NCBI RefSeq assembly: GCF_000317495.1
Contig: NC_019754.1
Location: 1-50,800 of the forward strand
Length of the DNA: 50,800 nucleotides
DNA from: Crinalium epipsammum PCC 9333
GTDB lineage: Bacteria; Cyanobacteriota; Cyanobacteriia; Cyanobacteriales; PCC-9333
Direction: 5' to 3'
The stretch's first letter is position 1. The number at the start of each line of letters is the position of its first letter. The translations under genes and the position numbers were made by a program. This document shows, in pieces, positions 19,437 through 45,900 of this stretch. The notes beneath the pieces are model-generated. The model did not search any database. It was given only the letters and a program-made list of their open reading frames with translations, and had not been told where the DNA came from.

Positions 19437-19447
19437 GAAATTAGGGG

Positions 19448-19853
19448 TTAGGGGGTGAGCAGATGAACTGTGGGAAAGTAGGCACGGTAACGATTGACAT
19501 CTCTGGTAAGTAGAGGCATTTCTGCGATCACAGCATGGGCACCAAGGTAGAAGTCAGACAAGGGCGAAAGACTCACTCCCGCACGACGGCGGTATTGAAG
19601 AAAACGTTGCCCAGCAAGAAAGGCAGTTTCGTAGGGCAATAGGCCACAACGAAAGAAGTCCGCTGGTAAAGCGGCTTCTAGTTCTTCTACTTGATGAAAC
19701 CCAATGGAGATTTCCACGTAGATGAGGAGGTTAATCACAAGAGTTACCCGCTCTGCATAGTCAGTGAGCATTTGCGCTAACCCTTCAAACCCACTGAGGA
19801 TTTTCAGTAAGGACATCGAGAATAACGTTGCTATCGACTAATACATGGGTCAT
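19448..19853 (-). pseudogene. PIN-domain toxin (VapC-like), frameshifted
   Basis: The true start MTHVLVDSNVILDVL (ATG at 19853) carries the PIN catalytic Asp, but the frame breaks near CAGTGGGTTTGAAGGG (about 19800-19815). The rest continues one frame over as the 19448-19816 ORF, ending SDFYLGAHAVIAEMPLLTRDV, the second and third acidic motifs of PIN RNases. One extra G in the GGG run explains the break. It is 8 bases downstream of an antitoxin relic, so this was a toxin-antitoxin pair that has lost function. Confidence 0.75.
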
Positions 19854-19861
19854 TTGTCTTT

Positions 19862-20080
19862 TCAAGTTAACTGCATAATATCATCGGTATGAGCATGATT
19901 AGTGGATTTGCCTTGCATCGTCTGGACGAGTCTAGCGTCTCGACTGGGAGCAAGTTTTTTACAAAGCTGAAGGGCTTCTCCAACAACTTCGATCTGGACT
20001 TTTGTACCAGGAAGCAATCTAAGCTGTTGCTAGATTTCTTCCAGAATGGTGATTTTTCCTTGGGAGTTAATTTGAGTCAT
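19862..20080 (-). pseudogene. AbrB/MazE-type antitoxin relic with internal stop
   Basis: Reading from the ATG at 20080 gives MTQINSQGKITILEEI, then TAG at 20032-20030, then QQLRLLPGTKVQIEVVGEAL and a C-terminal tail to a TGA at 19862. This is a swapped-hairpin (SpoVT/AbrB) antitoxin; the expected sequence at the stop is an Arg codon, so one or two substitutions killed it. Its start overlaps the hsdS stop by four bases (ATGA), so it is embedded in the restriction operon. Confidence 0.72.
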
Positions 20081-21270
20081 ACAACAATGCTCCCATTCAT
20101 TAGTCGGGGAAGAAGGAGATCACGGGCTTGACGAAGTTTTTTATTTTGAAAATAAAGATTAATAAGCTGTTGATCTACTGGTTTTGAGATATTTTCAAAT
20201 GCCTGCAAAACTTCTTGTGAGGGAACAAGCATCATTTGCTCAGAAAGCTGCTTTTTAGTGACAGAGGCAAAGATGGCTCCACCACCGATTAGGTCTTCTT
20301 GGAAGAAGTATGCTTTCAATTGATAAAATTGAAAGGATTGATAACCTTGCCTATTCCGTATGGCTGCCAAACCTCGCCCAATAATGATCCGGTCGAGGGT
20401 AATGTTTAACCGACCGACAGGCGCACGTACACTACAAAGAATATCTCCTGTCTCTGCAAGCCGATTTGGTTGTGTGCAGTAGGTTTCGTGGCTAATAAAA
20501 CGATTGCCAAACTTTGTAACTCCCTGATGAAAAGGTAGCCCTTGACCAGTAGTGTTGTAAGTAGTAGATCGTGGACTTTGCCCCATAATGAGTTCACAAA
20601 CTTCCTCAAGAGGCTTACAAGTCCACCCCTCCGGCATACCATCAACTACCTTTACCTGATCACACCCTGGAAACCGCAACCGCACAAACCATTCTTTGTA
20701 GAGCCGATGGATGGATTCTTCCAGCAGAGCAATTCGGCGGGTGTTGTTGTCGATGAGGCGATCGTAGTTAAAGAGGATGTCAGCAATGCGCTGTTGAGTT
20801 GGTATAGGTGGATTATGAACTGCGATAGTTGCAAGCTCTGATCCACGAATTCCTTTCTGAGCAACACCAGTTACGATTGCTGTGATCGTGGAACGACCAA
20901 TAGGGGACTTGAAATAGTAGTAGTAAAATTGCGGATCGCAGCATTCTTTACGGAGGCGAACTCGAATCATCGAGGATTCAAATACCATTGGCTCATCATG
21001 ATCAACAATGAGGCTACATTTTCCTGCACCTTCTTCGACTAGAGATCTTCGAGCAAAGAGTAAATCTCCGGCTTGAAGACCGAACCTACCAAGTTCTTCA
21101 TCAGTAACGCTTAAAAGCTTCATTTCTTGGTTGCCAATAAAGGGAAATGCAAACATTTCACCCATGTTGACGATACGAATTCCAGAACCATGAAACTCTT
21201 TAGCCTTATAAAGTCCATTTCGTGACGGAGCCGCATAAAGACTTTCAAACTTAGTGGTTGACCATTTCAT
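20077..21270 (-). CDS. hsdS: Type I restriction enzyme, specificity subunit (HsdS)
   Basis: 397 residues with two target-recognition halves: N-terminal TRD ending in the conserved helix PPIPTQQRIADILFNYDRLI (about 153-172) and second TRD starting PEGWTCKPLEEVCELIMGQS, ending in QARDLLLPRLMNG. This is the usual two-TRD layout defining a bipartite recognition site. Overlaps hsdM by four bases upstream. Its stop overlaps the antitoxin-relic start. Actual DNA target cannot be read from sequence. Confidence 0.94.
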   Translation of the reverse strand: MKWSTTKFESLYAAPSRNGLYKAKEFHGSGIRIVNMGEMFAFPFIGNQEMKLLSVTDEELGRFGLQAGDLLFARRSLVEEGAGKCSLIVDHDEPMVFESSMIRVRLRKECCDPQFYYYYFKSPIGRSTITAIVTGVAQKGIRGSELATIAVHNPPIPTQQRIADILFNYDRLIDNNTRRIALLEESIHRLYKEWFVRLRFPGCDQVKVVDGMPEGWTCKPLEEVCELIMGQSPRSTTYNTTGQGLPFHQGVTKFGNRFISHETYCTQPNRLAETGDILCSVRAPVGRLNITLDRIIIGRGLAAIRNRQGYQSFQFYQLKAYFFQEDLIGGGAIFASVTKKQLSEQMMLVPSQEVLQAFENISKPVDQQLINLYFQNKKLRQARDLLLPRLMNGSIVV

Positions 21271-23381
21271 AGCATCAACTCCTCAAGATTGGTCTGAATC
21301 ATCGTTGCTAACTCCACCGCCGCCTGATTGAGTTCAGATAACTCTAAATGAATTTCCTTCAGCCGTTCCTCAAATCCCTCCTCATCCTCCTGATCTGCCG
21401 CTCCTACGCCCACATAGCGTCCCGGTGTGAGGCTGCTATCACTCTTAGCAATCTCATCACGAGTAACTACCTTACACAATCCCGGCACATCCACCAGTGC
21501 CGCCTCTGGGAACCGAGTTTGCAGCCAGTGTATCTGCTGGTTGATGTACAGCGTCGTCTTAATCGCCTGTACAACCCCGTCATGGGCAGCATTCAATCCA
21601 TCTCGATATTGGCGGATCGACTTACTATTCAACTCCTCTGTTTTACGAGCCTCTAGCTTTTTCTCTGCGAGTTCCAATGCTCTTATAGTCAGCTTGTGGC
21701 TCTCATTCACTTGTTTTTGGAGCGTTTTGAGTCGAGGAACAAAAGGCACGAAATTCTCAGCGCAGGCTTTTTGTTCCTCGTTGGTAGATAAGGCATTACC
21801 ATCCATCTCCTCCATATAGTCCGTTAAATCCGTCTTCAGCGTTCCCCACTCTTCCGCCAGCAGTTTCATCGCTTCATCCTGCTCTGCTAGGACAGCTTGG
21901 AACGCTGCAATATCCTCTGCTGAAATGTCCTCAGTCGGTTTTAACCCCTGCTTAAATGTTGTTAGCACCTTAGTCAGAGACGTGATCGCTGGATTCAATG
22001 CCGCAATGGAGGGCGCGATCGCGCTTGCCTCCTGGTGAGTTTGCATTAAATACTCTCGCACCAACCCCAGGTAACGGGATTGTTCACCGCGATAAAGCCA
22101 TGCTATCGCAGTAATGTTTTTAAGTTGCTCTTCACTAAAATCTCGAATCTTGCGACTAATGACCCGATGTAGGCTACGGGCATCAATCATCAGCACCTTA
22201 TCTTTGTGTTCGGCTGGCTTACCTCGGTCAAAAAACCAGAGTGTGCATGGGAGAGATCGGGTGTAGAAAAAGTTGGTTCCAATAGAGATGATCGCATCCA
22301 CATCTCCTGTAGCGATTATCTGCTCCCTGATTTCTTTCTCTCCATGTCCCGCATCCGAAGCAGAACTAGCCATCACAAAGCCTGCCCGTCCCTTAGAGTT
22401 CAAGTAGCTGTAATAATACTGAATCCACAGATAGTTAGCATTGCTCACCGCTCCAGTTTTGGCACTAATGCCAGGGAGCTTTTTATCAGTGAACAGCCGC
22501 GGGTCTGTCTTCACCTTCTCTGGACTAACGCTATCCACGTTAAAAGGTGGATTCGACATCACAAAATCGCACGCCCCGATCAAGTCGTCACACTTGTCAT
22601 AAAACGTGTTGCCCTGGCGAATATTACCTTCTAGGCCATGCACTGCAAGGTTCATCTTTGCCAGCCGAATGTTATTATCTGACTTCTCCTGACCACAAAA
22701 CGTAATCCGCTCTGATGGGTTAGTACCCTGATTTTCCAGAAAGTGCCCTGTCTGCACAAACATACCTGCACTACCACACGCTGGGTCAAACACTACCCCA
22801 CGGGTCGGCTCAATCACATTTACAATTGTCCGTACTAGGGACGGCGGTGTAAAGAACTCGCCCCCCTCCTGGGCACCTGTCATCGCAAACTTGTTCAGGA
22901 AATACTCATAAATACGTCCAAATACATCCCCTGTCGCCTGCTTCAGTTCATCCCGTGCGAAAATTCGCACCAACTCACCCAACAGACCCGGATCGAAGCT
23001 AGTATACTCCTTGGGTAACACACCCTGGAGCATCTCCGTCTGAGCCTCAATCAACTCCATCGCTTCTTTAATTGCTGTACCGTGATCGCAACCCCCCGGC
23101 AACGTGAGGATGTAGTCGTAATGGGCTTTTTCTGGTAAAAAGATTGCCGCTTTCCCTGTAAAGTCTCCTGAAGTCAAAGGTCTTTTCTTTCCCCCACGCG
23201 ATGGCAATGTCGGTTCAATCTCAGCCTTCACCGCCTCAAATCTATTGGTTGCATGGCGTAGAAATATTAGCCCTAGCACGGGCATACTGTATTCGTTCGC
23301 GTTGAGATTGGAATTAGCACGCAGATTGTCAGCCGCCTCCCATAAGGAGCTTTCCAGAACACTAATATTAAGCATTGACAT
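21267..23381 (-). CDS. hsdM: Type I restriction enzyme, methylase subunit (HsdM)
   Basis: 704 residues. SAM-binding motif VFDPACGSAGMF (Asp199 onward) and catalytic NPPF (277-280) mark an N6-adenine methyltransferase; the N-terminal helical domain (about 1-150) contacts HsdS. The tail beyond about residue 480 is a long charged coiled-coil-like extension (EEWGTLKTDLTDYMEEMDG, LELAEKKLEARKTEELNSK), making it longer than the roughly 500-residue classic enzymes. First gene of the operon. ATG 23381 is followed by another Met at residue 3. Confidence 0.95.
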   Translation of the reverse strand: MSMLNISVLESSLWEAADNLRANSNLNANEYSMPVLGLIFLRHATNRFEAVKAEIEPTLPSRGGKKRPLTSGDFTGKAAIFLPEKAHYDYILTLPGGCDHGTAIKEAMELIEAQTEMLQGVLPKEYTSFDPGLLGELVRIFARDELKQATGDVFGRIYEYFLNKFAMTGAQEGGEFFTPPSLVRTIVNVIEPTRGVVFDPACGSAGMFVQTGHFLENQGTNPSERITFCGQEKSDNNIRLAKMNLAVHGLEGNIRQGNTFYDKCDDLIGACDFVMSNPPFNVDSVSPEKVKTDPRLFTDKKLPGISAKTGAVSNANYLWIQYYYSYLNSKGRAGFVMASSASDAGHGEKEIREQIIATGDVDAIISIGTNFFYTRSLPCTLWFFDRGKPAEHKDKVLMIDARSLHRVISRKIRDFSEEQLKNITAIAWLYRGEQSRYLGLVREYLMQTHQEASAIAPSIAALNPAITSLTKVLTTFKQGLKPTEDISAEDIAAFQAVLAEQDEAMKLLAEEWGTLKTDLTDYMEEMDGNALSTNEEQKACAENFVPFVPRLKTLQKQVNESHKLTIRALELAEKKLEARKTEELNSKSIRQYRDGLNAAHDGVVQAIKTTLYINQQIHWLQTRFPEAALVDVPGLCKVVTRDEIAKSDSSLTPGRYVGVGAADQEDEEGFEERLKEIHLELSELNQAAVELATMIQTNLEELML

Positions 23382-34584: not shown

Positions 34585-34794
34585 ATGCAACAGCTACCAA
34601 AGGCGAAAACCCAGCCTACTAAATGGGTTATCCAGGCTTATACGTTAAGAAAGCAGCAGCAAACGGCTGAAACTTGCGCCACACTTAAATTTGAAGCCAA
34701 ACGTCAATTAGGCGATCGCACTCCAGTATCGCTAAAAGATTTTGAAAAATTAAATAATTATACATCCTCTCTGCCAAATGGGGGTGAGGTATGA
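34585..34794 (+). CDS. Small basic protein preceding the replication gene
   Basis: 69 residues from ATG 34585, chosen for its AAGGAG ribosome site 6-7 bases upstream (an earlier in-frame start lacks one). Basic N-terminus (MQQLPKAKTQPTKWVIQAY) and an amphipathic middle (LKFEAKRQLGDRTP). Its stop overlaps the replication gene (ATGA), so the two are coupled. Possible replication accessory or copy-control protein; not recognised. Confidence 0.6.
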   Translation: MQQLPKAKTQPTKWVIQAYTLRKQQQTAETCATLKFEAKRQLGDRTPVSLKDFEKLNNYTSSLPNGGEV

Positions 34795-37700
34795 TATACC
34801 CTCAACACCTAGAGGAATGGCGTAATTCTGCGGTCGCTCAAGACATCATTGAGTTGAATGTGCGCTCGCTCAGTGGCAACGAAGCTTACGAGGCTATCCT
34901 TTATGCCTTGCCTAATACTGAACGACGTAATGACGGCAGATTAAGAGACTATTGGCTGAGGAAATATCATCACTTTGATTATGGTGGCTGGCATTGCACA
35001 GGTGTCGATGTTATTACTCTTAAAGAGAGTCAATGGGGATGTTTTAAACCAAACAAACCAAGAGTTGAGGAGTTTAATGGTTTTGGTGATGTTCCAAAAG
35101 TAAAAACAGTTAAGTACGAGCATCCGGTTAAAACTCCGACAGAGATATTTGCCCTAAAAGTACCGCGTCACATTTGGCAAGCCATAGCAGAGCGTTACGG
35201 ACTAGAAATAGAGGGTGATAACTTCTGGGATTGGGTAATCGCTCACCCTGAGATTCCCATTATCCTTGTCGAGGGAGCCAAGAAAGCAGGAGCCGTTCTG
35301 ACTGCTAATTATATAGCGATCGCACTACCAGGGATCTTTTCTGGCTATCGCCAGCCCAGAGATGAATTTGGCAACAATACTGGACTCAAATACTTAATCC
35401 CCCAACTAGAAGTATTTGCAGTCGAAGGTCGAGAATTTTACTTCTGCTTTGATAACGATCAGAATTCTAAAACAATTCAGAATGTAAGAACTGCAATAAC
35501 TAATACTTCTAAACTCTTAATCAAGAGAAAATGCACCGTTAAACTTATACAATGGAACTTCAAAGAAAAGGGAGTTGATGACCTAATTGCAGCACGAGGT
35601 ACTGAGTGCTTTGATTTGCTATATGAAACTGCTTCAACTTATAAGCAATGGCAGAAGAAGCTCTTATTTGATATCACTCCTTATGTCTCTGAAACTGTTT
35701 GTAAGCAGTACTTAGAAGCTAGTGATATTAATCCCCCTGATGATGCTGTGATCATAGGAATTAAATCCTTTAAAGGCACAAACAAAACTGGTTCACTAGC
35801 TGAATGCGTGAGAGATTTTATTGCCGATGGTAAGCGAGTATTAGGAGTTGTCCATCGTCAACAATTAGCTGCTGTCAATGCCTCCAGATTCGGTGTAGAC
35901 TATCTTAATGATCTGAAGCAATCTTTTACTCAATCATTACAAGGATATTTTCTCTGTCATCACAGTTTACACCCCCACAGTAAAGCTAAATTTGACCCCC
36001 ACTCCTGGGATCAAGGTCTGGCTGTATTTGACGAAATCGAGCAAGTAATCTGGGATTTACTAGACAGCAGTTTGATTAAAGAATTTAGAATCTTAATTAT
36101 CGAAACCCTCGCATCAGTTTTACAGAACATTGTTAGAGGCGGGGGGAAAATTTACATCATGGATGCTGATCTAAGCCCCATCAGTATTCAGTTCCTTTAC
36201 AGTTTGTTAGGTGAGAAAGTTAAAACTTGGGTACTGCACAACACTTATCTTCCCACTGACAGAGAACGACATTTATATGTTTACAACAATCCTAAACAGC
36301 TAGTAAACAAGGCTTTAGATACTGCTAAAAAAGATCAGAAGATTATTGTTCATACCTCTGGACAGAAGCATAAAAGCAAATTTGGCACTCGGAATTTAGA
36401 AGCCCTTTTCAATAAAGAATGCTTCGGAAAAAATATTTTACGGATTGACGGTGAATCAACTCGTGATCCTAATCATCCTGCTTACAGATGTATCGGCTCT
36501 GACTTAAATAAACAACTTATTGATTATGATATCGTCATTACCTCTCCATCTTTAGAGACTGGCGTAAGCATCGACGTTAGAGGTCATTTTAATGCGGTAT
36601 TTGGAATTGCTCAAGGCGTACAAACTGTTAACAGTTTCTGTCAAACTATCGAGAGAATCAGGGAAGATATACCCCGCCATATATTCGTAGCCCCCAGAGG
36701 ATTGCCTAGCTGTTTCGTGGGCAATGGTTCCACTGATATCAAAGGTTTATTAGCTTCAACTCATCAACTAGCTAAAGCTCACATTAGTCTACTCGCACAA
36801 CTCAACAATGATGGAACAGAAACCGAATACTTTGATAGCCCCCTAATTACTTGGGCTAAGTTGGGAGTATTAATTAATCAAGGAATGCTGAACTATCAAG
36901 AGTCAATCCTTGAGAAGTTAGAGGCAGATGGCTATGAGATTTTAGAGCCAGAGCCGGATGAGGAAATAGTAGATTTATCAAAGGAGATTACCGAATCTAG
37001 AGATAAAATTTATCAGGAATATTGCCACGATGTTCCCAATTCATATACCTTGTCACCTGATGAATTTAACCAACTACAAAATCAACAATCTCGTACTGAA
37101 GATGAATTACTCTCAGAGAAAAAATTCCTGCTCAATAGAAACTACCAAATAGAGGTTACGCCAGAATTAGTAGAGGCAGACGATGATGGCTTAAGCCCAA
37201 AACTCAAACTGCTCTACTACTCAACTATTGGTCGAGAATATTTACCAGAGCGTGATAAAAAAGCTTTAGCTAGTTTAACAGAGTATAGCGATAAGAAAGT
37301 TTGGAAGCCTGACTTAAATAAGCGACTACTAGGAATTAAGGTGAAATTGGTCGAGTTGTTCTTATCTCGGTTTTTAGAAGGCGATAGCACATTTACTCCC
37401 TCAGATCTACAGGCGTGGCACTTACAGCTTTACGTCTCAAGGCACGATATTAAGACAGCAATCGGCGTAACCATCAAAGAGGATTCGTCACCGATTAGAA
37501 CTGCCAATGCACTGTTGGCGTTGGTAGGAGCCAAGCTTGCCCCTACAGGGGAGAAGCGGGGAGTTAGAGGTGAGCAGGAGAAGGTATATAAGTGTGTTTC
37601 CCTTGTCCAGCACTGGGCAGATCAGATATTCCCAGCGTGGCTTGAGCGTGACAAATCTCAAAATGTATCAAGTTCTGATACCGTAGTACAAAATCCGTAT

Positions 37701-37997
37701 ATTAATAGATCAAATCAAGTTTGTACTACCGATCTTGTTTGTACTACCAGTCAAATTGAAAGCCAGCAATTAGATCTAATCAATCCAGTAGCCAAACAGA
37801 AACCAGAACTTAATCCCCCGCACAGTGAACAATCGGCTAGTTTGGTCGGTCGGAGGGCTAGAGCCTTTGCTACCAGATACAACCCTGCTGGGGAGGGTGT
37901 GATAGTGGTTGATCGTGGCTATTCAAAATCAGTTGAGATCCAACTAGACAGTGGGCGCGTAGTTTTCTGTAGCGTTGATCAGTACGAGGTGGTGTAG
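34791..37997 (+). CDS. Plasmid replication protein, DUF3854/toprim-like plus helicase (CyRepA-like)
   Basis: 1068 residues. The N-terminal third has IPIILVEGAKKAGAVLT, FYFCFDNDQNSKTI and WNFKEKGVDDLIAARG, a toprim-like/DUF3854 pattern. A helicase-type region follows with GIKSFKGTNKTGSL (motif I-like, with a nonstandard loop), VFDEIEQV (acidic Walker B-like), VITSPSLETGVSIDV and IERIREDIPRHI. This is the layout of the cyanobacterial CyRepA replication proteins of large plasmids (my recognition, not a search result). The last 200 residues are a less conserved helical tail. The main evidence that this window is replicon DNA. Confidence 0.8.
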   Translation: MIYPQHLEEWRNSAVAQDIIELNVRSLSGNEAYEAILYALPNTERRNDGRLRDYWLRKYHHFDYGGWHCTGVDVITLKESQWGCFKPNKPRVEEFNGFGDVPKVKTVKYEHPVKTPTEIFALKVPRHIWQAIAERYGLEIEGDNFWDWVIAHPEIPIILVEGAKKAGAVLTANYIAIALPGIFSGYRQPRDEFGNNTGLKYLIPQLEVFAVEGREFYFCFDNDQNSKTIQNVRTAITNTSKLLIKRKCTVKLIQWNFKEKGVDDLIAARGTECFDLLYETASTYKQWQKKLLFDITPYVSETVCKQYLEASDINPPDDAVIIGIKSFKGTNKTGSLAECVRDFIADGKRVLGVVHRQQLAAVNASRFGVDYLNDLKQSFTQSLQGYFLCHHSLHPHSKAKFDPHSWDQGLAVFDEIEQVIWDLLDSSLIKEFRILIIETLASVLQNIVRGGGKIYIMDADLSPISIQFLYSLLGEKVKTWVLHNTYLPTDRERHLYVYNNPKQLVNKALDTAKKDQKIIVHTSGQKHKSKFGTRNLEALFNKECFGKNILRIDGESTRDPNHPAYRCIGSDLNKQLIDYDIVITSPSLETGVSIDVRGHFNAVFGIAQGVQTVNSFCQTIERIREDIPRHIFVAPRGLPSCFVGNGSTDIKGLLASTHQLAKAHISLLAQLNNDGTETEYFDSPLITWAKLGVLINQGMLNYQESILEKLEADGYEILEPEPDEEIVDLSKEITESRDKIYQEYCHDVPNSYTLSPDEFNQLQNQQSRTEDELLSEKKFLLNRNYQIEVTPELVEADDDGLSPKLKLLYYSTIGREYLPERDKKALASLTEYSDKKVWKPDLNKRLLGIKVKLVELFLSRFLEGDSTFTPSDLQAWHLQLYVSRHDIKTAIGVTIKEDSSPIRTANALLALVGAKLAPTGEKRGVRGEQEKVYKCVSLVQHWADQIFPAWLERDKSQNVSSSDTVVQNPYINRSNQVCTTDLVCTTSQIESQQLDLINPVAKQKPELNPPHSEQSASLVGRRARAFATRYNPAGEGVIVVDRGYSKSVEIQLDSGRVVFCSVDQYEVV

Positions 37998-38818: not shown

Positions 38819-39994
38819 ATGTTGATGCCTGATGATAAATATGATCGCTTAAAAAGGATTCCCAACTGGAGCCAAGAAAAATTGGTCAATGCGAAAGTGG
38901 CGGTATTTGGCTGCGGCGCATTGGGTAATGAAGTGCTGAAAAACTTGGCTTTACTGGGAATTGGTCATATTTGGGTCGTGGACTACGACACCATCGAAAT
39001 CCATAATTTGACGCGCTCAGTTTTGTTTAGAGAGTCGGACATAGGTAGGCATAAAGCTGAGGTTGCGGCCGAGCGAGTTAAAATTTTGAACCCAGATACC
39101 CAAGTTTATCCCATTATCGGTAAGCTGGAATTTGCCTTTGGGTGCGGCTTGCTGCGGGAAATGGATGTGGCGTTTGGCTGCTTGGATAGCGTTAGTGCCA
39201 GACGAGAAATTAATAAAAAGTGCTACTTTGCTGGGGTGCCTTGGATTGACGGCGGAATTAACCACCAACTGGGAAATGTTGCTCTTTTCAATCCCAGGGT
39301 TCCAGACACTGCCTGCTATCGCTGCCAAATGGATAGGTCAGCTTGGGCAAGGCTCAACGAAAGGTATTCATGTGGATTTCTAAATGACAGCTATCAGGAA
39401 CCAAAGTTAGCAACAACCATTATGACTTCATCGGTTATTGCCGCTTACCAAGTCGAAGTGGCTGTGCAATTGTTGTTATTTGGTGAAAGTAACTTAAAAC
39501 CAGGCACTAAGCTGTTTTTACCTGTTACTATGCCAGTAGGTTTTACAACACTTGAATTTAATCTTGATCAGGAATGTCCAGATCATGCCTCAATTCCGCA
39601 AAATAGCAGCACATCACCATTGCCAGTCAAATTTGAGAGTACACCTAAACAAGTTGCCCAAGAATTAGATTTAGGGCCGGATTGGAAGTTAGAGTTGCCT
39701 TTTGATTTTGTCTCTAAGTTTACTTGCGAAAATTGTGGATACATAGATCTAGTTAGAAAACCTCTCAAAGAAATCAAACAAGGTGAAACAAAATGTCCGC
39801 AGTGTAACAATTTAAACAGAGAAGCTGTCAAGTATTTTCAGCTTTATGCTGAGTCTGAAGATGCAGATTTGACTTTTAAGGATTTTTGGTTAGCTGAACG
39901 GGAGTTGCTTAACTATAGTGGTCAAAAATTTCAGTGGGACGTAAACATAGAGTTATTTTCTGAATCCAAAAAAACACATCAGGATGATAATTAA
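38819..39994 (+). CDS. E1-like (ThiF/MoeB-family) ubiquitin-activating enzyme
   Basis: 391 residues. VAVFGCGALGNEV (28-40, nucleotide-binding Rossmann loop) and VVDYDTIEIHNLTRS (ends at Arg66) are E1 adenylation-domain signatures; Cys185 in RYSCGFLND is at the position of the catalytic Cys of ThiF/MoeB. Zinc-type cysteines are present as C166-Y-R-C169 and C253-P-D-H256; a C-terminal zinc ribbon (C303-x2-C306, C326-x2-C329) is additional. It would adenylate the C-terminal carboxylate of the ubiquitin-like protein. First gene of the operon; 3-base gap to the next. Weak ribosome site; ATG at 38825 is an alternative. Confidence 0.88.
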   Translation: MLMPDDKYDRLKRIPNWSQEKLVNAKVAVFGCGALGNEVLKNLALLGIGHIWVVDYDTIEIHNLTRSVLFRESDIGRHKAEVAAERVKILNPDTQVYPIIGKLEFAFGCGLLREMDVAFGCLDSVSARREINKKCYFAGVPWIDGGINHQLGNVALFNPRVPDTACYRCQMDRSAWARLNERYSCGFLNDSYQEPKLATTIMTSSVIAAYQVEVAVQLLLFGESNLKPGTKLFLPVTMPVGFTTLEFNLDQECPDHASIPQNSSTSPLPVKFESTPKQVAQELDLGPDWKLELPFDFVSKFTCENCGYIDLVRKPLKEIKQGETKCPQCNNLNREAVKYFQLYAESEDADLTFKDFWLAERELLNYSGQKFQWDVNIELFSESKKTHQDDN

Positions 39995-39997
39995 ATC

Positions 39998-40246
39998 ATG
40001 GAAACAATTAAGGTCATTGTTAAGACTTTCGATGGAAATTTCAAAAAAACAACTGATGTTCCTGGGGATATGCTTATAGAAGACTTTCAATGGGAAGCTC
40101 AGGAAGTGGCTAACTTATCATCGGTTCCTTACTACTTGATTTTAGATAAAACAAACAAAATCCTACGAGGTAATGATACTTTTCAAGGTGCGGGCATTCA
40201 ATCGGGATCTTTATTAATACTCGTACCTTATGTAGAAGTTAGCTAA
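39998..40246 (+). CDS. Ubiquitin-like protein, copy 1 (no C-terminal Gly-Gly)
   Basis: 82 residues, beta-grasp fold: ETIKVIVKTFDGNFKKTTDV, PGDMLIEDF, ILRGNDTFQGAGIQSGSLLI. It ends LVPYVEVS, with no diglycine. Nearly identical to the next gene over most of its length, including its upstream ribosome region (CATCAGGAnGATAATTAA), so it arose by tandem duplication with a 320-base period. Either inactive for conjugation, a non-covalent regulator, or recently decayed at the tail. Confidence 0.82.
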   Translation: METIKVIVKTFDGNFKKTTDVPGDMLIEDFQWEAQEVANLSSVPYYLILDKTNKILRGNDTFQGAGIQSGSLLILVPYVEVS

Positions 40247-40317
40247 ATTCATTTGATGTCAAACCATCTTATAATCACTTTCATAACTACAGAAATCATC
40301 AGGAGGATAATTAACTC

Positions 40318-40575
40318 ATGGAAACAATTAAGGTCACTGTTAGGACTGTCGATGGAAATTTCAAAAAAACAACTGATGTTCCTGGGGATATGCTTATAGA
40401 AGACTTTCAGGAGCAAGCTCAGGAATTGGCTAACTTATCATCGGTTCCTTGCCACTTGCTCTTGAGTTTAGATAAAACAACCAAAATCCTACAAGGTAAT
40501 GATACTTTTCAAGGTGCGGGCATTCAACCGGGATCTTTATTAACACTCACACCTAATGCAGAAGGAGGTTATTAA
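40318..40575 (+). CDS. Ubiquitin-like protein, copy 2 (C-terminal Gly-Gly-Tyr)
   Basis: 85 residues, same beta-grasp pattern, ending LTPNAEGGY. Gly83-Gly84 followed by one residue is the precursor form of ubiquitin-like modifiers; the JAMM enzyme encoded downstream could remove Tyr85. AGGAGG in the leader (40299-40310) gives a strong ribosome site. The codons for Gly-Gly (GGAGGT) double as the ribosome site of the E2 gene, which begins 2 bases after this stop. Confidence 0.87.
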   Translation: METIKVTVRTVDGNFKKTTDVPGDMLIEDFQEQAQELANLSSVPCHLLLSLDKTTKILQGNDTFQGAGIQPGSLLTLTPNAEGGY

Positions 40576-40577
40576 AA

Positions 40578-41090
40578 ATGGCTATTCGTGACCAGCGGCT
40601 TGCTAATGACTATAGAGGTTTACAAAAGCTGTGTGCTTTTAACGAGCCAGTCAAAGTTAAGATACTGGAACAAAGAGGTACACCACCCGAATACTACCGA
40701 ATCCAACTATCTAACTGCAAGGGGATAGAGTCAGTTGCAGGTGAAACACCAAAGTATCGAACTGAACACATAATTATCATCAGTAATTTTCCAGCAAACT
40801 ATCCCGATCCGGGTCAATTGCCTGATGTTAAGGTAGAAACTCCACTGTATCATCCCAATGTTTTTTCACATGGAGGATTTTGCTTCAAAGGTAGTGAACT
40901 GACAACTATCAGTCAGCCTCTAGATGTTTTGGTAAAAAGAGTTATTAGTATGATCCAGTATGAAAATCTTAGGTTTGGAGCACCTGCTAATGGAAATGCA
41001 AGAGATTGGGCTAATAGAAATAACCACTTATTTCCATTAAGTACAGGTTCAGATTTTGGTCAAACTAAGCCCAAGTTGAATTGGAGATAA
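40578..41090 (+). CDS. E2-like ubiquitin-conjugating enzyme
   Basis: 170 residues with the UBC fold. FPANYPDPGQLPDVKVETPL is the YPxxxP strand region; HPN at 92-94 and Cys102 in GGFCFKG are the E2 signature (His-Pro-Asn and the thioester Cys eight residues later). It would take the modifier from the E1 and pass it to a target. The C-terminus (residues 165-170) is KLNWR, a copy of the L-x-W-R motif found through this operon. Ribosome site is GGAGG, inside the preceding gene. Confidence 0.88.
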   Translation: MAIRDQRLANDYRGLQKLCAFNEPVKVKILEQRGTPPEYYRIQLSNCKGIESVAGETPKYRTEHIIIISNFPANYPDPGQLPDVKVETPLYHPNVFSHGGFCFKGSELTTISQPLDVLVKRVISMIQYENLRFGAPANGNARDWANRNNHLFPLSTGSDFGQTKPKLNWR

Positions 41091-41182
41091 AGTAAAAATT
41101 TTTAGCTTTTATTTAATATAAAGATGATTGGGATAGAGGAATTTCATGTAACCCTTTGGCAAAAAATAGGCTAAAAAATATC

Positions 41183-41277
41183 TATAGCGTTTCCTATGTA
41201 ACTGAGGTACAAGAATATTTTGTATATCAAGCCTTGAAGTTCTGAGGCTGTACCTCACCAGATCGAGAAACGCTATA
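41183..41277. mobile_element. MITE-like element between the E2 and JAMM genes
   Basis: Terminal inverted repeats TATAGCGTTTC (41183-41193) and GAAACGCTATA (41267-41277) with a nested pair GAGGTACA/TGTACCTC (41204-41211, 41249-41256) and TA ends: a 95-bp foldback without coding capacity. It lies in the only large gap of the operon (41091-41318), so it is probably an insertion; its stem might terminate or process the message. Confidence 0.72.
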
Positions 41278-41318
41278 TTTTCCTTATTAAGACCTTTAAT
41301 TTAGTGGGATTAAAGATT

Positions 41319-42302
41319 ATGCCCAAACTCCAGTGGCGTGATTCTGAGGATGTTTATAAACCGATAAGCCGTTCTCTTAAAGAATTTTTGCAAGAGAACC
41401 ATAATCGCATACGTCATCAAAATCATAGAGGTATTGAAGCACTATACAAGCAACTAAGTAATAACAGAATGAGTGTTTTTGTAGAGCGTGAAGCTGAGGA
41501 TAGACTTATAGAGCATCTCAGAATCGATCCTAATAATGAGACAGGAGGCGTATTAGTTGGACAAGCTTACTTATGTCCAGATACAAAGAATCATTACACG
41601 GAAATTGTTGGGTCAATAGCTGCTCCTTATACAGTTGGTAATCGAGTTCATTTTCACTTTACTCCTGAATGTTGGCAGGCGATTCTAAGCGATCAAAAAG
41701 AATACTTCCCCAGAACTACAGTTGTTGGCTGGTATCATTCCCATCCTGGTCATGGAATTTTTTTATCAGGGACTGACTTAAATACCCAACGGTTATGCTT
41801 TAAGCAAATTTGGCAAATAGCAGTAGTTTACGATCCCTTACGTCAGGAAATAGGCTATTTTTATGATGCAGATGGGAGAAGGGTTGAGGCTATATATCTT
41901 CAAGAAATGTCGGAAGCTGCTCAATCACAACCCGAACAGCAACAACTGAACTGGCGACAGCCAGAACTACAATTGTCAACAGTACCTACTCCTTCTTCAT
42001 TAGCGTTACACAATACTCCTGAAGAAGGCGAAGAACCGTTGCAAGACATACCTCAACAAATAGCTAGACAGACAAAAACAAGGGGTCAAAATCCTAAGTT
42101 TATTCTCGTTTTGCCAATTATTGTAGTTTTATTTTTATTAGTTTTATTTATTAATAGTAACCTATCTCAGCCTGGCTTTAAACTACGACCTTCACAGTCG
42201 CAACCTACAAAGCCACAATCTGTAGACATACAACCAGCCGAACCACGACCCACAGAGCCACATTCAGCAGAGTCGAAACGCCCAAAGTTAGAACGACCAT
42301 AG
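41319..42302 (+). CDS. JAMM/MPN metallopeptidase with C-terminal membrane anchor
   Basis: 327 residues from ATG 41319 (MPKLQWRDSED); a GTG at 41304 would add five residues. JAMM motif complete: Glu74 (NETGGVLVG), His140, His142, Ser150 and Asp153 in GWYHSHPGHGIFLSGTD. It is a candidate deubiquitinase or precursor-trimming enzyme. The N-terminus is LQWRD; a second copy, LNWRQ, is at residues 210-214. A membrane helix (about 261-279, FILVLPIIVVLFLLVLFIN) precedes a Pro/Gln-rich tail, so the enzyme faces the cytosol if the anchor is a single pass. Confidence 0.88.
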   Translation: MPKLQWRDSEDVYKPISRSLKEFLQENHNRIRHQNHRGIEALYKQLSNNRMSVFVEREAEDRLIEHLRIDPNNETGGVLVGQAYLCPDTKNHYTEIVGSIAAPYTVGNRVHFHFTPECWQAILSDQKEYFPRTTVVGWYHSHPGHGIFLSGTDLNTQRLCFKQIWQIAVVYDPLRQEIGYFYDADGRRVEAIYLQEMSEAAQSQPEQQQLNWRQPELQLSTVPTPSSLALHNTPEEGEEPLQDIPQQIARQTKTRGQNPKFILVLPIIVVLFLLVLFINSNLSQPGFKLRPSQSQPTKPQSVDIQPAEPRPTEPHSAESKRPKLERP

Positions 42303-42312
42303 CCTTAATAGT

Positions 42313-44043
42313 ATGACTTGGCAAGATTTATTTGAAAACCAAACCTGGTGGTTAAGAAACCTGTTCGGCGGTAGGGAAACTATCATTGGCCCCAATGAAC
42401 CTTTACCCCCTACAGATATTCATCTTAGAGATTTAAGGGATTACTCAGGAACAGCCATACTCAACGAGCTTTGTGATACTTTCAAGAGTCCAGGCTCTCA
42501 GTTTCATAATTACAAAATTATTAAACATCCAGATAGATCTGCTTCTCAGCCAGTTGTCAATCTCGGTAAGTTTCTAAAAATTGCTGGCGGAAAATTCAAG
42601 CCAACTCAAGATATTTGGCTGCAAGAAAAATCTATTTACAGAAATATGGCTATTATCGGGCCACCTGAGTCTGGCAAGACGAAAGGGTTAATTATTCCAG
42701 GGATAAAGGCTGCGATCAATGCTGGTTTATCTAATATTGTAATTGATGTCAAAGGTGGTTCTCTAATAGACGAACTAGGACATTATGCAGAGCAAAGGGG
42801 AGTGAGGGTGATTTATTGGAGTACGCTTCCTCAAGAAGTTGCCCGCAGTCACAGTATTAATTTACTAGATAATATCAACTCTGTACAAGATGCTCAAATC
42901 TTAGCTAAATGTTTGTATGGTGATACTGAAAATTTAGGGGAAAATCAGCAAATTGCCTTGAGAGATATCGCTTGGATGGCTCAGTGGATAATGCTGATTA
43001 AACATATTTTTGGCAATGCTGGCAACCTCAAGCATATTTATCAAATTGCTCAAAACCCTGTTGAAACCCTAACCCCACTTTTACGAGTATGTCAGGATAG
43101 TAGATTACAAGCAGCTATTGAGTCCCAATTAAGATTAATTCAAGAAAGCGAAAATGGGGCAAATGCTTTTACTTGGGCAATTCAAAATGCGATTGGTTTT
43201 TTTGGTTGGCCTAATTTTGAGCAAGTTACAGGACACAGCGACATTTTACTGCGAGATATTCAGCGTCACCCTACTTTATTAGTAATTGGAGCCGAGTTAG
43301 CAGGACGTGATGTTTCTAAAAAGATATCATCAGCACTAATTGATATTCTAATGACTATTTTTTATGAACGATGGACTCAAAATGAGGGTGAGCAAGGAAT
43401 TGTATTTTGGATTGATGAGTTTCCTAGAATTCAAAAACAGATAGATATTAGTGAGTTTAGTAGCGTGGCACGTTCAGCCAGAGGAAGCATTGTAATTGCT
43501 GCTCAAAGCTTAGAGCAAATTACACCCGAATATCGAGAACAAGTGCTGGAAAATTTTGATACGGTTGTTCTCTGTCGTGGTGTAAGTAATGGTGCAGCTG
43601 AGTGGCTGAGTAACCGTTTAGGAACTCGCAGCCAAAATTTGACAAGACGGAGATACCACGATCCCAATCCACAAGACGAGTATCCTTGGTTAAGGACTCG
43701 TTCAGAGCGAGAAGGTTATGAAAATTGGCGCGAATCTGCACCTGTACTGAGTAGTAGAGAGATTCAGTATCCTGTAGGCAATCACTATGTAGCAGTAGTT
43801 CATTCTAGAACAGCTTGTCGCAAACCTTTTTTAGTCGATTATAAGAGGGCTTTACAGCCAAGTGCTGAATGGCGACCAGCACCAAGAGTTCAATTAAACT
43901 GGCAAGAACCTACATCAGAACAAAGAAGAATTGCCGGGTCAAATACTCGGCAATTAAACTGGCGTGATAGTCAAGAACAGGAAGCTACAAACCAACAGCA
44001 GGAAAACAGACCCCCCTTAAACTGGCGAGATGTTGAAGAGTAA
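42313..44043 (+). CDS. VirD4/TraG-family ATPase with LNWRD tail
   Basis: 576 residues. Walker A GPPESGKT (116-123), Walker B IVFWIDEFPRI (363-373), AAQSLEQI (396-403): the type IV coupling-protein/TraG ATPase. It lacks the N-terminal membrane helices usual for VirD4, so it would be soluble or tethered by partners. The last 60 residues hold three motif copies: LNWQE (528-532), LNWRD (548-552), LNWRD (569-573), in a Gln/Glu-rich linker. Hexameric pumping of DNA or protein is known for the family; what it moves here is unknown. 10-base gap after the JAMM gene. Confidence 0.85.
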   Translation: MTWQDLFENQTWWLRNLFGGRETIIGPNEPLPPTDIHLRDLRDYSGTAILNELCDTFKSPGSQFHNYKIIKHPDRSASQPVVNLGKFLKIAGGKFKPTQDIWLQEKSIYRNMAIIGPPESGKTKGLIIPGIKAAINAGLSNIVIDVKGGSLIDELGHYAEQRGVRVIYWSTLPQEVARSHSINLLDNINSVQDAQILAKCLYGDTENLGENQQIALRDIAWMAQWIMLIKHIFGNAGNLKHIYQIAQNPVETLTPLLRVCQDSRLQAAIESQLRLIQESENGANAFTWAIQNAIGFFGWPNFEQVTGHSDILLRDIQRHPTLLVIGAELAGRDVSKKISSALIDILMTIFYERWTQNEGEQGIVFWIDEFPRIQKQIDISEFSSVARSARGSIVIAAQSLEQITPEYREQVLENFDTVVLCRGVSNGAAEWLSNRLGTRSQNLTRRRYHDPNPQDEYPWLRTRSEREGYENWRESAPVLSSREIQYPVGNHYVAVVHSRTACRKPFLVDYKRALQPSAEWRPAPRVQLNWQEPTSEQRRIAGSNTRQLNWRDSQEQEATNQQQENRPPLNWRDVEE

Positions 44044-44065
44044 AGAAAGAGAAGGAGGTAGTTTG

Positions 44066-44710
44066 ATGTCACAATGGAGCCAAGCAACACAAATGGATAA
44101 TTTTAGTGGTCTTTGGTATAAGTTCAAACAAGATAGTAATGGTAATTGGCATATTTTGTGTTCGAGCGATAAAAATAGCTTGGAAAGCCAAAATATTATT
44201 TATCATGACCATTATTGGCAAAGTAATGGTCGGTGGTATTGTCAAGGTAGACAAGGTAACAAGCATACGATGAATGGAGATTCTTTTATTGAAGGAATCG
44301 AAAGGCAAAATCAAATAGCTTCTTTGGATCTAACAGATGCTGAAAAGCAAGAACTCAATTTAACATCTGGAGCTTTAAATCGCTTAACACCTCAACAAGT
44401 GAAAAAATTAGCAGACTATAGAGCGTGTCAAGCATATGGTAATGCTGGGTATGGAGGAACCGATCGTGGTGTAGAAGTTAGCCTTTATGAAGCAGATATT
44501 TTTGAGCGTTTAGTAAAACAACATCAATCTAGCACTAGCACCCTAACTTGGCGAGACGCAGAAGAAAACAGGCTTTCTGTAACTGAGTCAGCCAAACAAA
44601 CATTGAACTGGCGAGATGCAACACCCGATATAAACTCACGCCAACCCACACAAGCTCGACATCAGTGTTCTCATCAAATTAGAAAATCAACTCGAAAAAT
44701 GACAAGATAA
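44066..44710 (+). CDS. Unknown protein with two L-x-W-R-D motifs
   Basis: 214 residues from ATG 44066, after GAAGGAGG; the upstream in-frame TTG-like extension to 44030 would overlap the previous gene. The N-terminal 60 residues are rich in Trp, Tyr, His (WYKFKQDSNGNWHILCS, YHDHYWQSNGRWYCQGR). The middle (IASLDLTDAEKQELNLTSGA, LNRLTPQQVKKLADYRACQA) is helical. LTWRD (160-164) and LNWRD (180-184) lie in a polar, disordered tail. No family recognised; probably an adaptor or substrate. Confidence 0.7.
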   Translation: MSQWSQATQMDNFSGLWYKFKQDSNGNWHILCSSDKNSLESQNIIYHDHYWQSNGRWYCQGRQGNKHTMNGDSFIEGIERQNQIASLDLTDAEKQELNLTSGALNRLTPQQVKKLADYRACQAYGNAGYGGTDRGVEVSLYEADIFERLVKQHQSSTSTLTWRDAEENRLSVTESAKQTLNWRDATPDINSRQPTQARHQCSHQIRKSTRKMTR

Positions 44711-44744
44711 TTTGATTTTTTTACTAAATGCTGTTGCAACAGAA

Positions 44745-45110
44745 ATGGAAAATTTCGAGGCAGGTGTAGCGTGTTGTTGGACTGGGCATAAGTTTATGAC
44801 AGGTGAGCGAGGAATGAAGTGTCTTACCTGTGGAAGAGTTATGACAAATGAAGCTTGGGAAGAGAAGGGAAAATGTTTTTTTGGGCATACTAATAGTACT
44901 TTTGCAATAGCTGGAAATATCACGATATTAAGTCCTGTCAGACCTAGAACCCGTCTAGAATGGCGAGATGTTAATCCACCTCCAGTTATGAGTCGATCTA
45001 GAACCCGTCTAAAATGGCGAGATGTTAAAACTAATAAATGGAAAATTATATTCATTTTAGCTATAGGTTTAATTTTGATATTTTGGATTATTTTTATTTT
45101 TAAAAGATAA
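44745..45110 (+). CDS. Membrane protein with degenerate RING-like domain (candidate E3)
   Basis: 121 residues from ATG 44745 (matching the start of its paralog; an upstream TTG at 44712 is less likely). Residues 1-50: H15, C26-x2-C29-G, W38, C44 and H48, i.e. HKF..G..G.KCLTCGRVMT....W.....C, the spacing of prokaryotic RING/treble-clef domains but missing several usual ligands. Two LxWRD motifs follow (LEWRD 71-75, LKWRD 89-93), then a C-terminal membrane helix (about 99-118). The next gene is a paralog. An E3 role is inference. Confidence 0.55.
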   Translation: MENFEAGVACCWTGHKFMTGERGMKCLTCGRVMTNEAWEEKGKCFFGHTNSTFAIAGNITILSPVRPRTRLEWRDVNPPPVMSRSRTRLKWRDVKTNKWKIIFILAIGLILIFWIIFIFKR

Positions 45111-45126
45111 CCTTAATCATATAGAT

Positions 45127-45900
45127 ATGGAAACGTTTGAACCAGGAATTGCATCAGCATACAATACACACAATTTCACCGAAGGTGAGGAGGGAATTAA
45201 ATGTTGCACCTGTCCAAGAGTTATGACAATTTATGAATGGGAAGAAAAAAGGCGATGTTTCTGTCAAGGGACTAATGTTGTTCCCGCCAGAGCTCGCTCT
45301 GCTCCGCCAACACGCTTAGAAAGCAACCGTACCAGAGCATCGTTTTCTCGCTCAAGACAAAACAATATTGTTCCTCCCATAGCTGCCACAAATTCAACAA
45401 TAAATTCGCGTTCTACCACTAACATTAATTCTACTAGAACGCAAAATCATGCTTTTTCAAATAAATTTATGGCAATAGCAGCTTTAATCTTATTTTCCTT
45501 TTGCGTACAACCAGTGTTAAATTTGTTTAATAATTTATCTTTGCAATTATCTCAATCACGCCTTCAGATACCACCTGAACAATTTATGAAAAATTACTAT
45601 TTTAAAATTAATAGTAGTAAATACGAACAAGCTTGGGAAGATTTATCTCCTAAATTCCAAGCAAAATCTGATCTTATGCCTTATGGGAAAACTTCTTATC
45701 TAAATTTTTGGAAAAGTAGAAGAGTAGAAATTGAAAGCATTAATTTAGTAGATCAAAAATCAAATTATGCTGAAGTTAATATTCGGCTGCGATACTTTGC
45801 ACAATCAAGAAACCTTGGGTCTAATTATATAAGCTATACTTTGATTTGGAACTCGTCAAAAAACAACTGGCAAATTGATGACAGTAAACTTTTTAACTGA
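45127..45900 (+). CDS. Membrane protein: degenerate RING-like domain, membrane helix, NTF2-like domain
   Basis: 257 residues. The first 50 align with the preceding protein (MExFExGxA, HxF, KCxTC, RVMT, W38, C44). A Ser/Thr/Arg linker has only a degenerate motif (LESNR). One membrane helix (about 118-136, MAIAALILFSFCVQPVLNL) leads to an NTF2-like fold (PEQFMKNYYFKINSSKYEQA, LIWNSSKNNWQIDDSKLF), a domain also found C-terminal in cyanobacterial kinases. Last gene of the operon; ends 154 bases before the right direct repeat. Confidence 0.6.
   Translation: METFEPGIASAYNTHNFTEGEEGIKCCTCPRVMTIYEWEEKRRCFCQGTNVVPARARSAPPTRLESNRTRASFSRSRQNNIVPPIAATNSTINSRSTTNINSTRTQNHAFSNKFMAIAALILFSFCVQPVLNLFNNLSLQLSQSRLQIPPEQFMKNYYFKINSSKYEQAWEDLSPKFQAKSDLMPYGKTSYLNFWKSRRVEIESINLVDQKSNYAEVNIRLRYFAQSRNLGSNYISYTLIWNSSKNNWQIDDSKLFN

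Follow-up and report, generated by a model that had tools for sequence, protein, structure and literature searches.

Prokaryotic operons that unite genes for an activating enzyme (E1), a conjugating enzyme (E2), a JAB peptidase and a RING protein with YukD-like ubiquitin-like proteins (Ubls) have reportedly been described (by Burroughs, Iyer and Aravind in 2011), and the operon analysed here shares with them separate E1 and JAB genes, an E2, a YukD-like Ubl and, as separate genes too, putative RING-like parts. It lies in the cyanobacterium Crinalium epipsammum PCC 9333 on NC_019754.1, a stretch of 50,800 nucleotides (the window) which forms one 50.8 kb contig of a 5.62 Mb genome in 9 contigs. 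As the original prediction held, the ORF listing of the window shows all nine open reading frames (ORFs) in one direction on the + strand at 38819-45900, with intergenic gaps of 1-71 nt, apart from 213 or 228 nt upstream of the JAMM gene (depending on its start). The core of the operon is, by its sequence signatures, a known kind of Ubl system; the new part appears to be a TraG-type ATPase module together with an operon-wide motif code, which varies by clade and partly in concert. The favoured reading, held at a probability of roughly 0.6, is that of a membrane-anchored Ubl conjugation and deconjugation complex which is gathered by the motif and whose action, exerted by an exchangeable effector, is probably directed against mobile elements.

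Several described systems come close. The mobile, patchily distributed operons of types 6a-6e (Iyer 2006; PMC1779556) likewise combine E1, JAB, Ubl and E2-fold genes (6e with a zinc-finger protein), whereas in the window E1 and JAB are separate genes, the E2 is a stand-alone protein of the active type, and neither a polyUbl nor an inactive E2 was seen in clade A, the group of operons to which the window belongs. Type 6e membership was rejected, as separate genes and single-domain Ubls stand in place of a polyUbl and an E1-JAB fusion. The Bil system (BilABCD; PMC11354881) resembles the window in that Ubl, E1, E2 and JAMM are each encoded by a gene of their own within a single operon. However, instead of a Ubl with two tandem beta-grasp domains, the window has Ubls of 82 and 85 amino acids, one ubiquitin length each; instead of a BilB-type CEHH E2, it has HPN followed by Cys102 in an E2 that matches no PADLOC model; and instead of a BilD-type E1 with an inactive and an active adenylation domain, it has one ThiF stretch, for which BilD ranks 25th of 33 PADLOC matches (4.8e-7). 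The ATPase and membrane genes are additional. In a variant prokaryotic Ubl system, the EAD1 adaptor domain links Ubl and effector (PMC7159879); the window differs in using a tandem peptide motif common to several parts, in an E2 separate from the Ubl and in an extra TraG-type ATPase and accessory (slot) protein, and no vWA, MoxR or FtsH protein was found among the 30 window proteins scanned. The Bub operons, putative immune pathways for which phage protection has not been demonstrated (PMC13373217), are bacterial ubiquitination-like operons as well. Neither the ATPase link nor the motif was described in the titles and abstract openings listed by searches of a limited literature collection.

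The catalytic core carries the features of an E1-E2-JAB system, namely the E1 cysteine, the E2 HPN and cysteine, an intact JAMM metal site and a C-terminal glycine on the second Ubl copy (not on the first). The E1-like adenylating enzyme (38819-39994, + strand, 391 amino acids) possesses one ThiF domain at residues 11-239 (PF00899, E 3.5e-48) and, among solved structures (PDB), is matched best by eukaryotic Uba1 chains (7.7e-31). The predicted catalytic Cys185 is conserved in 38/38 aligned rows (window included), and the four cysteines of a C-terminal zinc-ribbon-like element (C303/C306/C326/C329) are kept in 37/37 or 37/38 rows. The E2 (40578-41090, + strand, 170 amino acids) reaches 1.5e-5 against the Pfam family UQ_con (25.1 bits, cut-off 27), its profile matches RAD6-type E2s in PDB (best UBE2B, 1.8e-11), and both HPN92-94 and Cys102, as predicted, are conserved in 40/40 rows. 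The JAMM/MPN+ isopeptidase (41319-42302, + strand; ATG at 41319, upstream GTG at 41304) matches Prok-JAB at 4e-9; the active site E74/HxHx7Sx2D anticipated for it is exact when numbered from that ATG, with Glu, both His and Asp conserved in 38/38 rows and Ser in 37/38 (window included). Its C-terminal transmembrane (TM) helix, along with one TM segment in each of two RING-like proteins (all by hydropathy), agrees with the proposed membrane linkage of the system.

The two predicted beta-grasp proteins are Ubl copy 1 (39998-40246, + strand, 82 amino acids) and Ubl copy 2 (40318-40575, + strand, 85 amino acids), which are 78% identical. Taken singly, they match YukD weakly in Pfam (0.19 and 0.06, the latter for copy 2); 26 Ubls combined into a profile match single ubiquitin chains in PDB over their whole length to Gly76 at about 1e-5, the far lower E values for di- and polyubiquitin being due to repeat counting. 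In Pfam searches, these 26 Ubls match YukD (17/26, best 1.4e-5), the SUMO-like Rad60-SLD (13/26), ubiquitin (9/26) and ThiS (1/26, at 0.08). By these matches, Ubl and E2 seem to resemble ubiquitin and RAD6-type E2s, unlike sulfur-carrier systems; a ThiS/MoaD pathway was ruled out on the single marginal ThiS match and the presence of E2 and JAMM. An assignment of the enzymes to sulfur-carrier pathways, which the original prediction had named as its refutation, was thus not seen, though the top NCBIfam match of the E1 is a ThiF model at 138.9 bits, half of the cut-off of 275. In 36/38 Ubls (counted by eye), glycine is the last residue or lies no more than three residues before it, the exceptions being copy 1 and the Ubl of locus L024. 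Copy 2 ends in AEGG-Y and would be conjugable after removal of the tyrosine. Copy 1 ends in YVEVS, a detail overlooked earlier; because its C-terminal glycine is missing, it is probably not conjugated, and it could serve as a decoy or a structural subunit, or be a duplicate in decay. Locus L008 likewise carries two Ubls.

Related operons place the accessory genes in context. A search of whole genomes with the E2 was positive in 4/388 genomes of the class (own included), while scans of GTDB and viral contigs yielded 37 and 1 related loci, respectively (numbered L; genomes are numbered G); the duplicates L006 (= L019) and L033 (= L007) were removed from the counts. A tree of 37 E1s, from which L008 (E1 cut by the contig end), L024, L025 and L044 were omitted, resolves four clades, each separated from the rest by a branch supported at 100/100 or 100/99, with the tool warning that some clades join on long branches. 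The order E1-Ubl-E2-JAMM holds nearly throughout and in all four clades, and every clade has a set of accessory genes of its own; L035 and L042 have a small ORF at the Ubl position that was not recognised as a Ubl, and L024, L025 and L044 are broken or cut. In clade A (cyanobacterial, seven operons, the window's among them), 7/7 operons additionally have genes for an ATPase, for membrane RING-like proteins and for a slot protein (L008 being assigned by gene content). In clade B (cyanobacteria), the additions are RING-like TM proteins (the single one scanned, from L018, has tetratricopeptide repeats) and, in most cases, a PIN-like protein. The extra genes of clade C (cyanobacterial metagenome-assembled genomes (MAGs), Tychonema and one Thiomargarita MAG) encode a RING-like and a zinc-ribbon-like protein, and its JAMM is extended by an additional N-terminal region. 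Many operons of clade P (mostly proteobacteria) carry a RING-like protein with a TM segment, along with a small protein that has a DnaJ domain (PF00226, 3.6e-8 in L026). The locus of Hormoscilla (L024) is a degraded operon with a short E1, a Ubl without terminal glycine and no JAMM found.

The feature that ties these parts together is a short peptide motif. In its strict form, [LI]xW[RQ][DEQ], it occurs nine times in four window operon proteins: twice in JAMM, three times in the ATPase and twice each in the slot protein and RING-like protein 1. On the + strand, the sites include the N-terminal LQWRD of JAMM (41328-41342), LNWQE, LNWRD and LNWRD in the ATPase tail (43894-44031), LTWRD and LNWRD in the slot tail (44543-44617) and LEWRD and LKWRD in the linker of RING-like protein 1 (44955-45023), to which a shortened LNWR at the C-terminus of the E2 (41076-41087) may be set. 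The placement is recurrent (E2 C-terminus, JAMM N-terminus, ends of accessory proteins), and the motif sits in exposed or disordered tails. The window's version is L-x-W-R-D; clade B has I-x-W-x-[DE], the proteobacterial operons have a related form, and clade C has a different motif, K-x-F-x-[VI].

The sharing of the motif, already noted in the original prediction, is far over chance in the relatives. Operon parts except E1 and Ubl were compared with 200 shuffles of each protein, with Walker-B letters masked and with L024 (broken operon) and L044 (E2 fragment only) additionally omitted; a separate tally was made unmasked, so that Walker-B and E1 core matches are counted in it. For the pattern h.W.[DE] (dots being any residue and h the hydrophobic position as written in these patterns), clade A has 40 matches in 35 proteins (shuffle mean 5.4, max 13), clade B has 67, carried by 47/55 proteins (mean 6.9, max 15), and clade P has 17 in 47 proteins (mean 3.5, max 12), while clade C has 1 in 23 proteins (mean 2.5). 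Conversely, K.F.[VI] is observed 18 times in clade C (mean 2.6, max 7), 0 times in clade B and 3 times in clade P (mean 3.1). Overall, the enrichment is about 5-10 times the shuffled expectation. Genes neighbouring the operons hold 2 h.W.[DE] matches in 7410 amino acids (A), 13 in 26687 (B) and 14 in 39459 (P). In the unmasked tally, the motif is found in 0/38 Ubls, and the E1 matches fall inside the folded domain (positions by eye). Two observations from the relatives concern motif bearers: the small DnaJ-domain protein of L026 (8372-8629) and its relatives in L027, L043 and L045 begin with MKWT[DE], which is the motif (4/8 such proteins), and a large protein of L037 (12247-14715, clade C) has about four KxFx[VI]-type copies at its N-terminus, two of them strict (by eye).

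Such a motif might also be a degron or a docking site for host factors, and its position in exposed or disordered tails would suit that. A DNA-pattern search of the window's genome, however, returned 12 matches (5 for the reversed pattern), 4 of them inside the operon; five of the remaining 8 are in frames of <50 residues, and the three others, in longer frames, either occur singly or deviate from LxWRD. Host clients bearing the motif elsewhere in the genome were accordingly rejected, since these 8 non-operon matches are in short frames or single and internal. Moreover, the motif varies by clade and changes in more than one operon protein of L061, L010 and L011, which makes a degron or host docking site an unlikely account. 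Docking of the motif in cis on JAMM was rejected as well: in the AlphaFold2 (AF2) model, which includes a TM helix, the JAMM core mostly has a predicted local distance difference test score (pLDDT) above 90, and both motif sites are predicted to be disordered, below 50 (residues 1-7 included). As JAMM's own sites are predicted to be disordered, the motif is probably read in trans.

Part of the motif excess reflects shared descent, and covariation is therefore the cleaner evidence. In L061, the E2 ends in VKWHKKQ, JAMM has KVRWHKRS, the slot tail VKWTKQ and IKWGKQ, and the ATPase VVWHNRR and IRWRR; net positive residues follow the tryptophan at 6/8 scored sites and negative ones at none. The mean charge after the scored aromatic residue is +1.12 in L061, whereas the values of the five LxWRD operons compared range from -0.88 to -1.50, and the L061 ATPase tail outside the motif is neutral, like that of the window. 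Similarly, L010 has lysine after the tryptophan in both E2 and JAMM, and in L011 phenylalanine replaces tryptophan in both. Because the motif differs by clade and changes in more than one operon protein in these three loci, the receptor would seem to lie inside the operon; as the motif is missing from the Ubls and the E1 tails, the Ubl or the E1 is the likely reader.

SUMO reads SUMO-interacting motifs (SIMs) via its strand beta-2, and the recognition of LC3-interacting regions (LIRs) by ATG8 is similar. The present motif shares with these the alternation of hydrophobic and aromatic residues and a charged flank, which may suggest binding to Ubl beta-2. A counterpart of the SUMO-SIM pair, in which Ubl strand beta-2 would read the tandem motif by strand addition and so bring every motif-bearing part and any tail-tagged effector to Ubl or Ubl-marked sites, through a code that differs by clade (LxWRD, IxWx[DE], KxFx[VI] and the charge-reversed form of L061), is a tentative and rather doubtful proposal. 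Ubl residues 16-18 have a net charge of +1 or +2 in the LxWRD and clade B operons, EEE in L061 (the beta-2 KK becoming EE) and net 0 in clade C. A basic triple at 16-18 goes with the presence of h.W.[DE] in 36 operons (18/11/0/7; Fisher 0.0076, two-sided), a value that is the best of 31 triples and uncorrected for kinship or the 31 tests. Clade P misfits the charge rule (triple KAE, net 0, in 11/12), and L029 keeps the lysine without an acidic motif. Among 1397 overlapping windows of five proteins compared between L061 and the five LxWRD operons, the most negative shift is an E2 window at residue 130, followed, once overlaps are merged, by two tied windows, one in JAMM and one at Ubl beta-2; beta-2 is hence not unique, since E2 and JAMM surfaces shift as much, and the charge complement between motif and Ubl is a lead only.

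The ATPase (42313-44043, + strand) belongs to the VirD4/TraG family (T4SS-DNA_transf, PF02534, 4.5e-17) and has intact Walker motifs (A, GPPESGKT; B, WIDE), a tail with three LNW[RQ][DE] and no TM segment by hydropathy, which agrees with its earlier description as soluble. It is 65-78% identical to five other operon ATPases. Searching with the ATPase profile only, at E 1e-80, recovered 3/386 genomes of the phylum (own, G019 and the new G514), each time inside the operon; the G514 locus (L061) is a full operon again. No ATPase relative was detected at phmmer E 1e-3 in the examined stretches of clades B, C and P.

It could be supposed that the ATPase is the coupling protein of a mobilisable plasmid and that the Ubl machinery regulates DNA transfer, a service to conjugation that the original prediction had considered. 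The family assignment speaks for this, as does a MobA/VirD2-type relaxase at 397-2511 of the operon's contig (Pfam), which, along with a CyRepA1 plasmid-type replication protein at 34791-37997 (NCBIfam), makes the contig probably a mobilisable plasmid; the window's genome has six PF03432 matches, spread over five contigs. The ATPase shares its domain and Walker motifs with VirD4/TraG coupling proteins of the CD1115 type (NCBIfam); nevertheless, it differs from them in the lack of a TM anchor, in its motif-bearing tail and in having no obligate relaxase. Counts of TraG and relaxase families in six genomes with the operon disfavour a conjugation role, because in two of them (G019, 100% complete, and G390, completeness unstated) the operon ATPase is the only TraG-family (PF02534) match and no PF03432 relaxase, the one relaxase family sought, was found. 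Given also that clades B, C and P have no detected relative of the ATPase, this explanation is quite unlikely. A PLSDB search with the E2 at E 1e-5 found no related plasmid, and one with the ATPase matched 21 records at a best identity of about 25%.

The slot protein (44069-44710, + strand) starts 25 nt past the ATPase end or, if its start is at 44030, overlaps that end. It consists of a head domain without family and a tail with two LxWRD motifs and a basic end. The AF2 model of the head (five sequences) has a mean pLDDT of 66.6, no Foldseek match was obtained at E 0.001 or better, and the VIA-align Z of at most 7.3, to a coiled-coil myosin construct, was taken as no fold assignment. In L011 and L061, the head is unrelated to that of the window (alignment scores 35 and 34, vs 489 for window and L008), and the tails keep two Trp motifs and a [KR]xTxKMTR end, as in the window. 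Tail alignment scores are modest (38 and 45, with shuffles of the L061 pair reaching 45), and tail kinship was therefore rested on motif number and the shared end. The alternative head is weakly like DUF234 (best E 0.014, below cut-off), contains an ExK sequence and found nothing in a PDB profile search. DUF234 is presumably a nuclease-like family. In clade B, the PIN-like proteins end in double motifs (PIN_4 at 9.1e-5 in 1/10 members; nothing convincing in a PDB profile search), and L020 (13678-14631) encodes a Ser/Thr kinase (PF00069, 1.6e-39) with two motif copies at its end. These proteins suggest a picture of effectors addressed by their tails. A kinase fused to a PIN-like protein (by eye), with two motif copies at its end, is seen in L012 (12557-13966).

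The swapped slot heads on conserved tails and the tail-tagged PIN-like and kinase proteins are also what would be expected if the slot protein and its clade B counterparts were abortive-infection effectors that Ubl conjugation either keeps inactive or turns on, with the ATPase sensing foreign DNA. Both nuclease-like assignments, however, are sub-threshold or from a single member, the PIN acidic residues seem incomplete (by eye) and the window slot head has no recognised fold; such a toxin switch is a possibility of some substance, short of an even chance.

RING-like protein 1 (44712-45110, + strand) matches Prok-RING_1 at 0.036, below cut-off. RING-like protein 2 (45127-45900, + strand), with a C-terminal domain of unsure kind, has no RING match in Pfam by itself (NTF2_YvbJ at 0.79 only) and aligns with the RING-like family. 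Prok-RING_1 matches 10/31 members of the wider domain set (best 2.1e-4), and the profile finds generic zinc fingers only in PDB (best 4.2e-5). Of the two RING-like membrane proteins originally proposed, the membrane part stood, and the RING-like part can be kept, with moderate confidence, as a divergent treble-clef-type zinc domain that is at most a putative RING E3. Membrane proteins of this kind, together with YukD as the Pfam model matched most often by the Ubls, might distantly recall type VII secretion, with the YukD-like Ubl and an FtsK/HerA-superfamily ATPase exporting tagged proteins through the membrane or inserting them into it. Yet the 30 window proteins scanned with Pfam (window only, not relatives) include no WXG100 protein, and E2 and JAMM favour conjugation, so that a secretion-like module is distinctly improbable.

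For the favoured motif-gathered complex, the reaction steps and the roles of the parts may be inferred from the conserved catalytic residues, the operon linkage and the motif with its covariation. JAMM would trim Ubl copy 2 to its Gly-Gly end, and would also remove attached Ubl; the E1 would adenylate the Ubl, load it via Cys185 and pass it to Cys102 of the E2, from which it would be transferred to a target lysine, the membrane RING-like proteins possibly helping as E3. The parts would be gathered by the motif, which E2, JAMM, ATPase and slot protein carry in their tails, as does one RING-like protein, with a motif-free component (the E1 or, as a guess, the Ubl) as reader. The action arm, switched or recruited by Ubl attachment, would then consist of the VirD4-like ATPase together with the exchangeable slot protein.

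Several points weigh against this scheme and its putative motif receptor. The E2 alone falls just short of its Pfam cut-off, and the RING assignment is weak, RING-like protein 1 lacking the last cysteine of the pattern and RING-like protein 2 the first. The motif is not universal (h.W.[DE] in 21/35 clade A and 17/47 clade P proteins; 0/9 P-type RING-like proteins in the unmasked tally), and K.F.[VI] is not wholly clade-specific, as it is somewhat raised in clade A too (8, mean 2.4, max 6). As regards covariation, the L061 slot tail is also basic outside the motif (12.1 per 100 residues, against 4.5-9.1 in others), and L011 is mixed, with an acidic motif in JAMM and basic ones in ATPase and slot protein. 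Furthermore, the PADLOC and NCBIfam matches are single-domain resemblances, and no known defence system was matched whole.

The likeliest purpose of the system, on these sequence grounds, would be conflict with phages or other mobile elements. A defence role is plausible: the operons are mobile and patchily distributed, have effector-like partners and, in a few relatives, STAND-like neighbours, single domains resemble defence models, and type I restriction genes share the contig, with the kinship of the E1 (CBASS-type E1-E2 models of PADLOC at 1e-19) and the ATPase (mad8 of PADLOC at 2.8e-8) as weak hints. The type I restriction-modification genes, which Pfam assigns to the HsdR, HsdM and specificity families, lie at 16182-23381 of the operon's contig. 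The STAND-type NTPase-like genes (named by eye) stand on the opposite strand upstream of the operon in L011, L022, L023 and L025; the last three are close kin, leaving few independent cases.

If the favoured reading is true, bacteria would possess a Ubl system with a single short peptide code as the address of several of its parts and of exchangeable effectors, and a VirD4-like ATPase would be placed outside conjugation. The origin of Ubl-interacting motifs would then be directly testable in a simple operon, and the motif would offer a handle for finding effectors in related operons.

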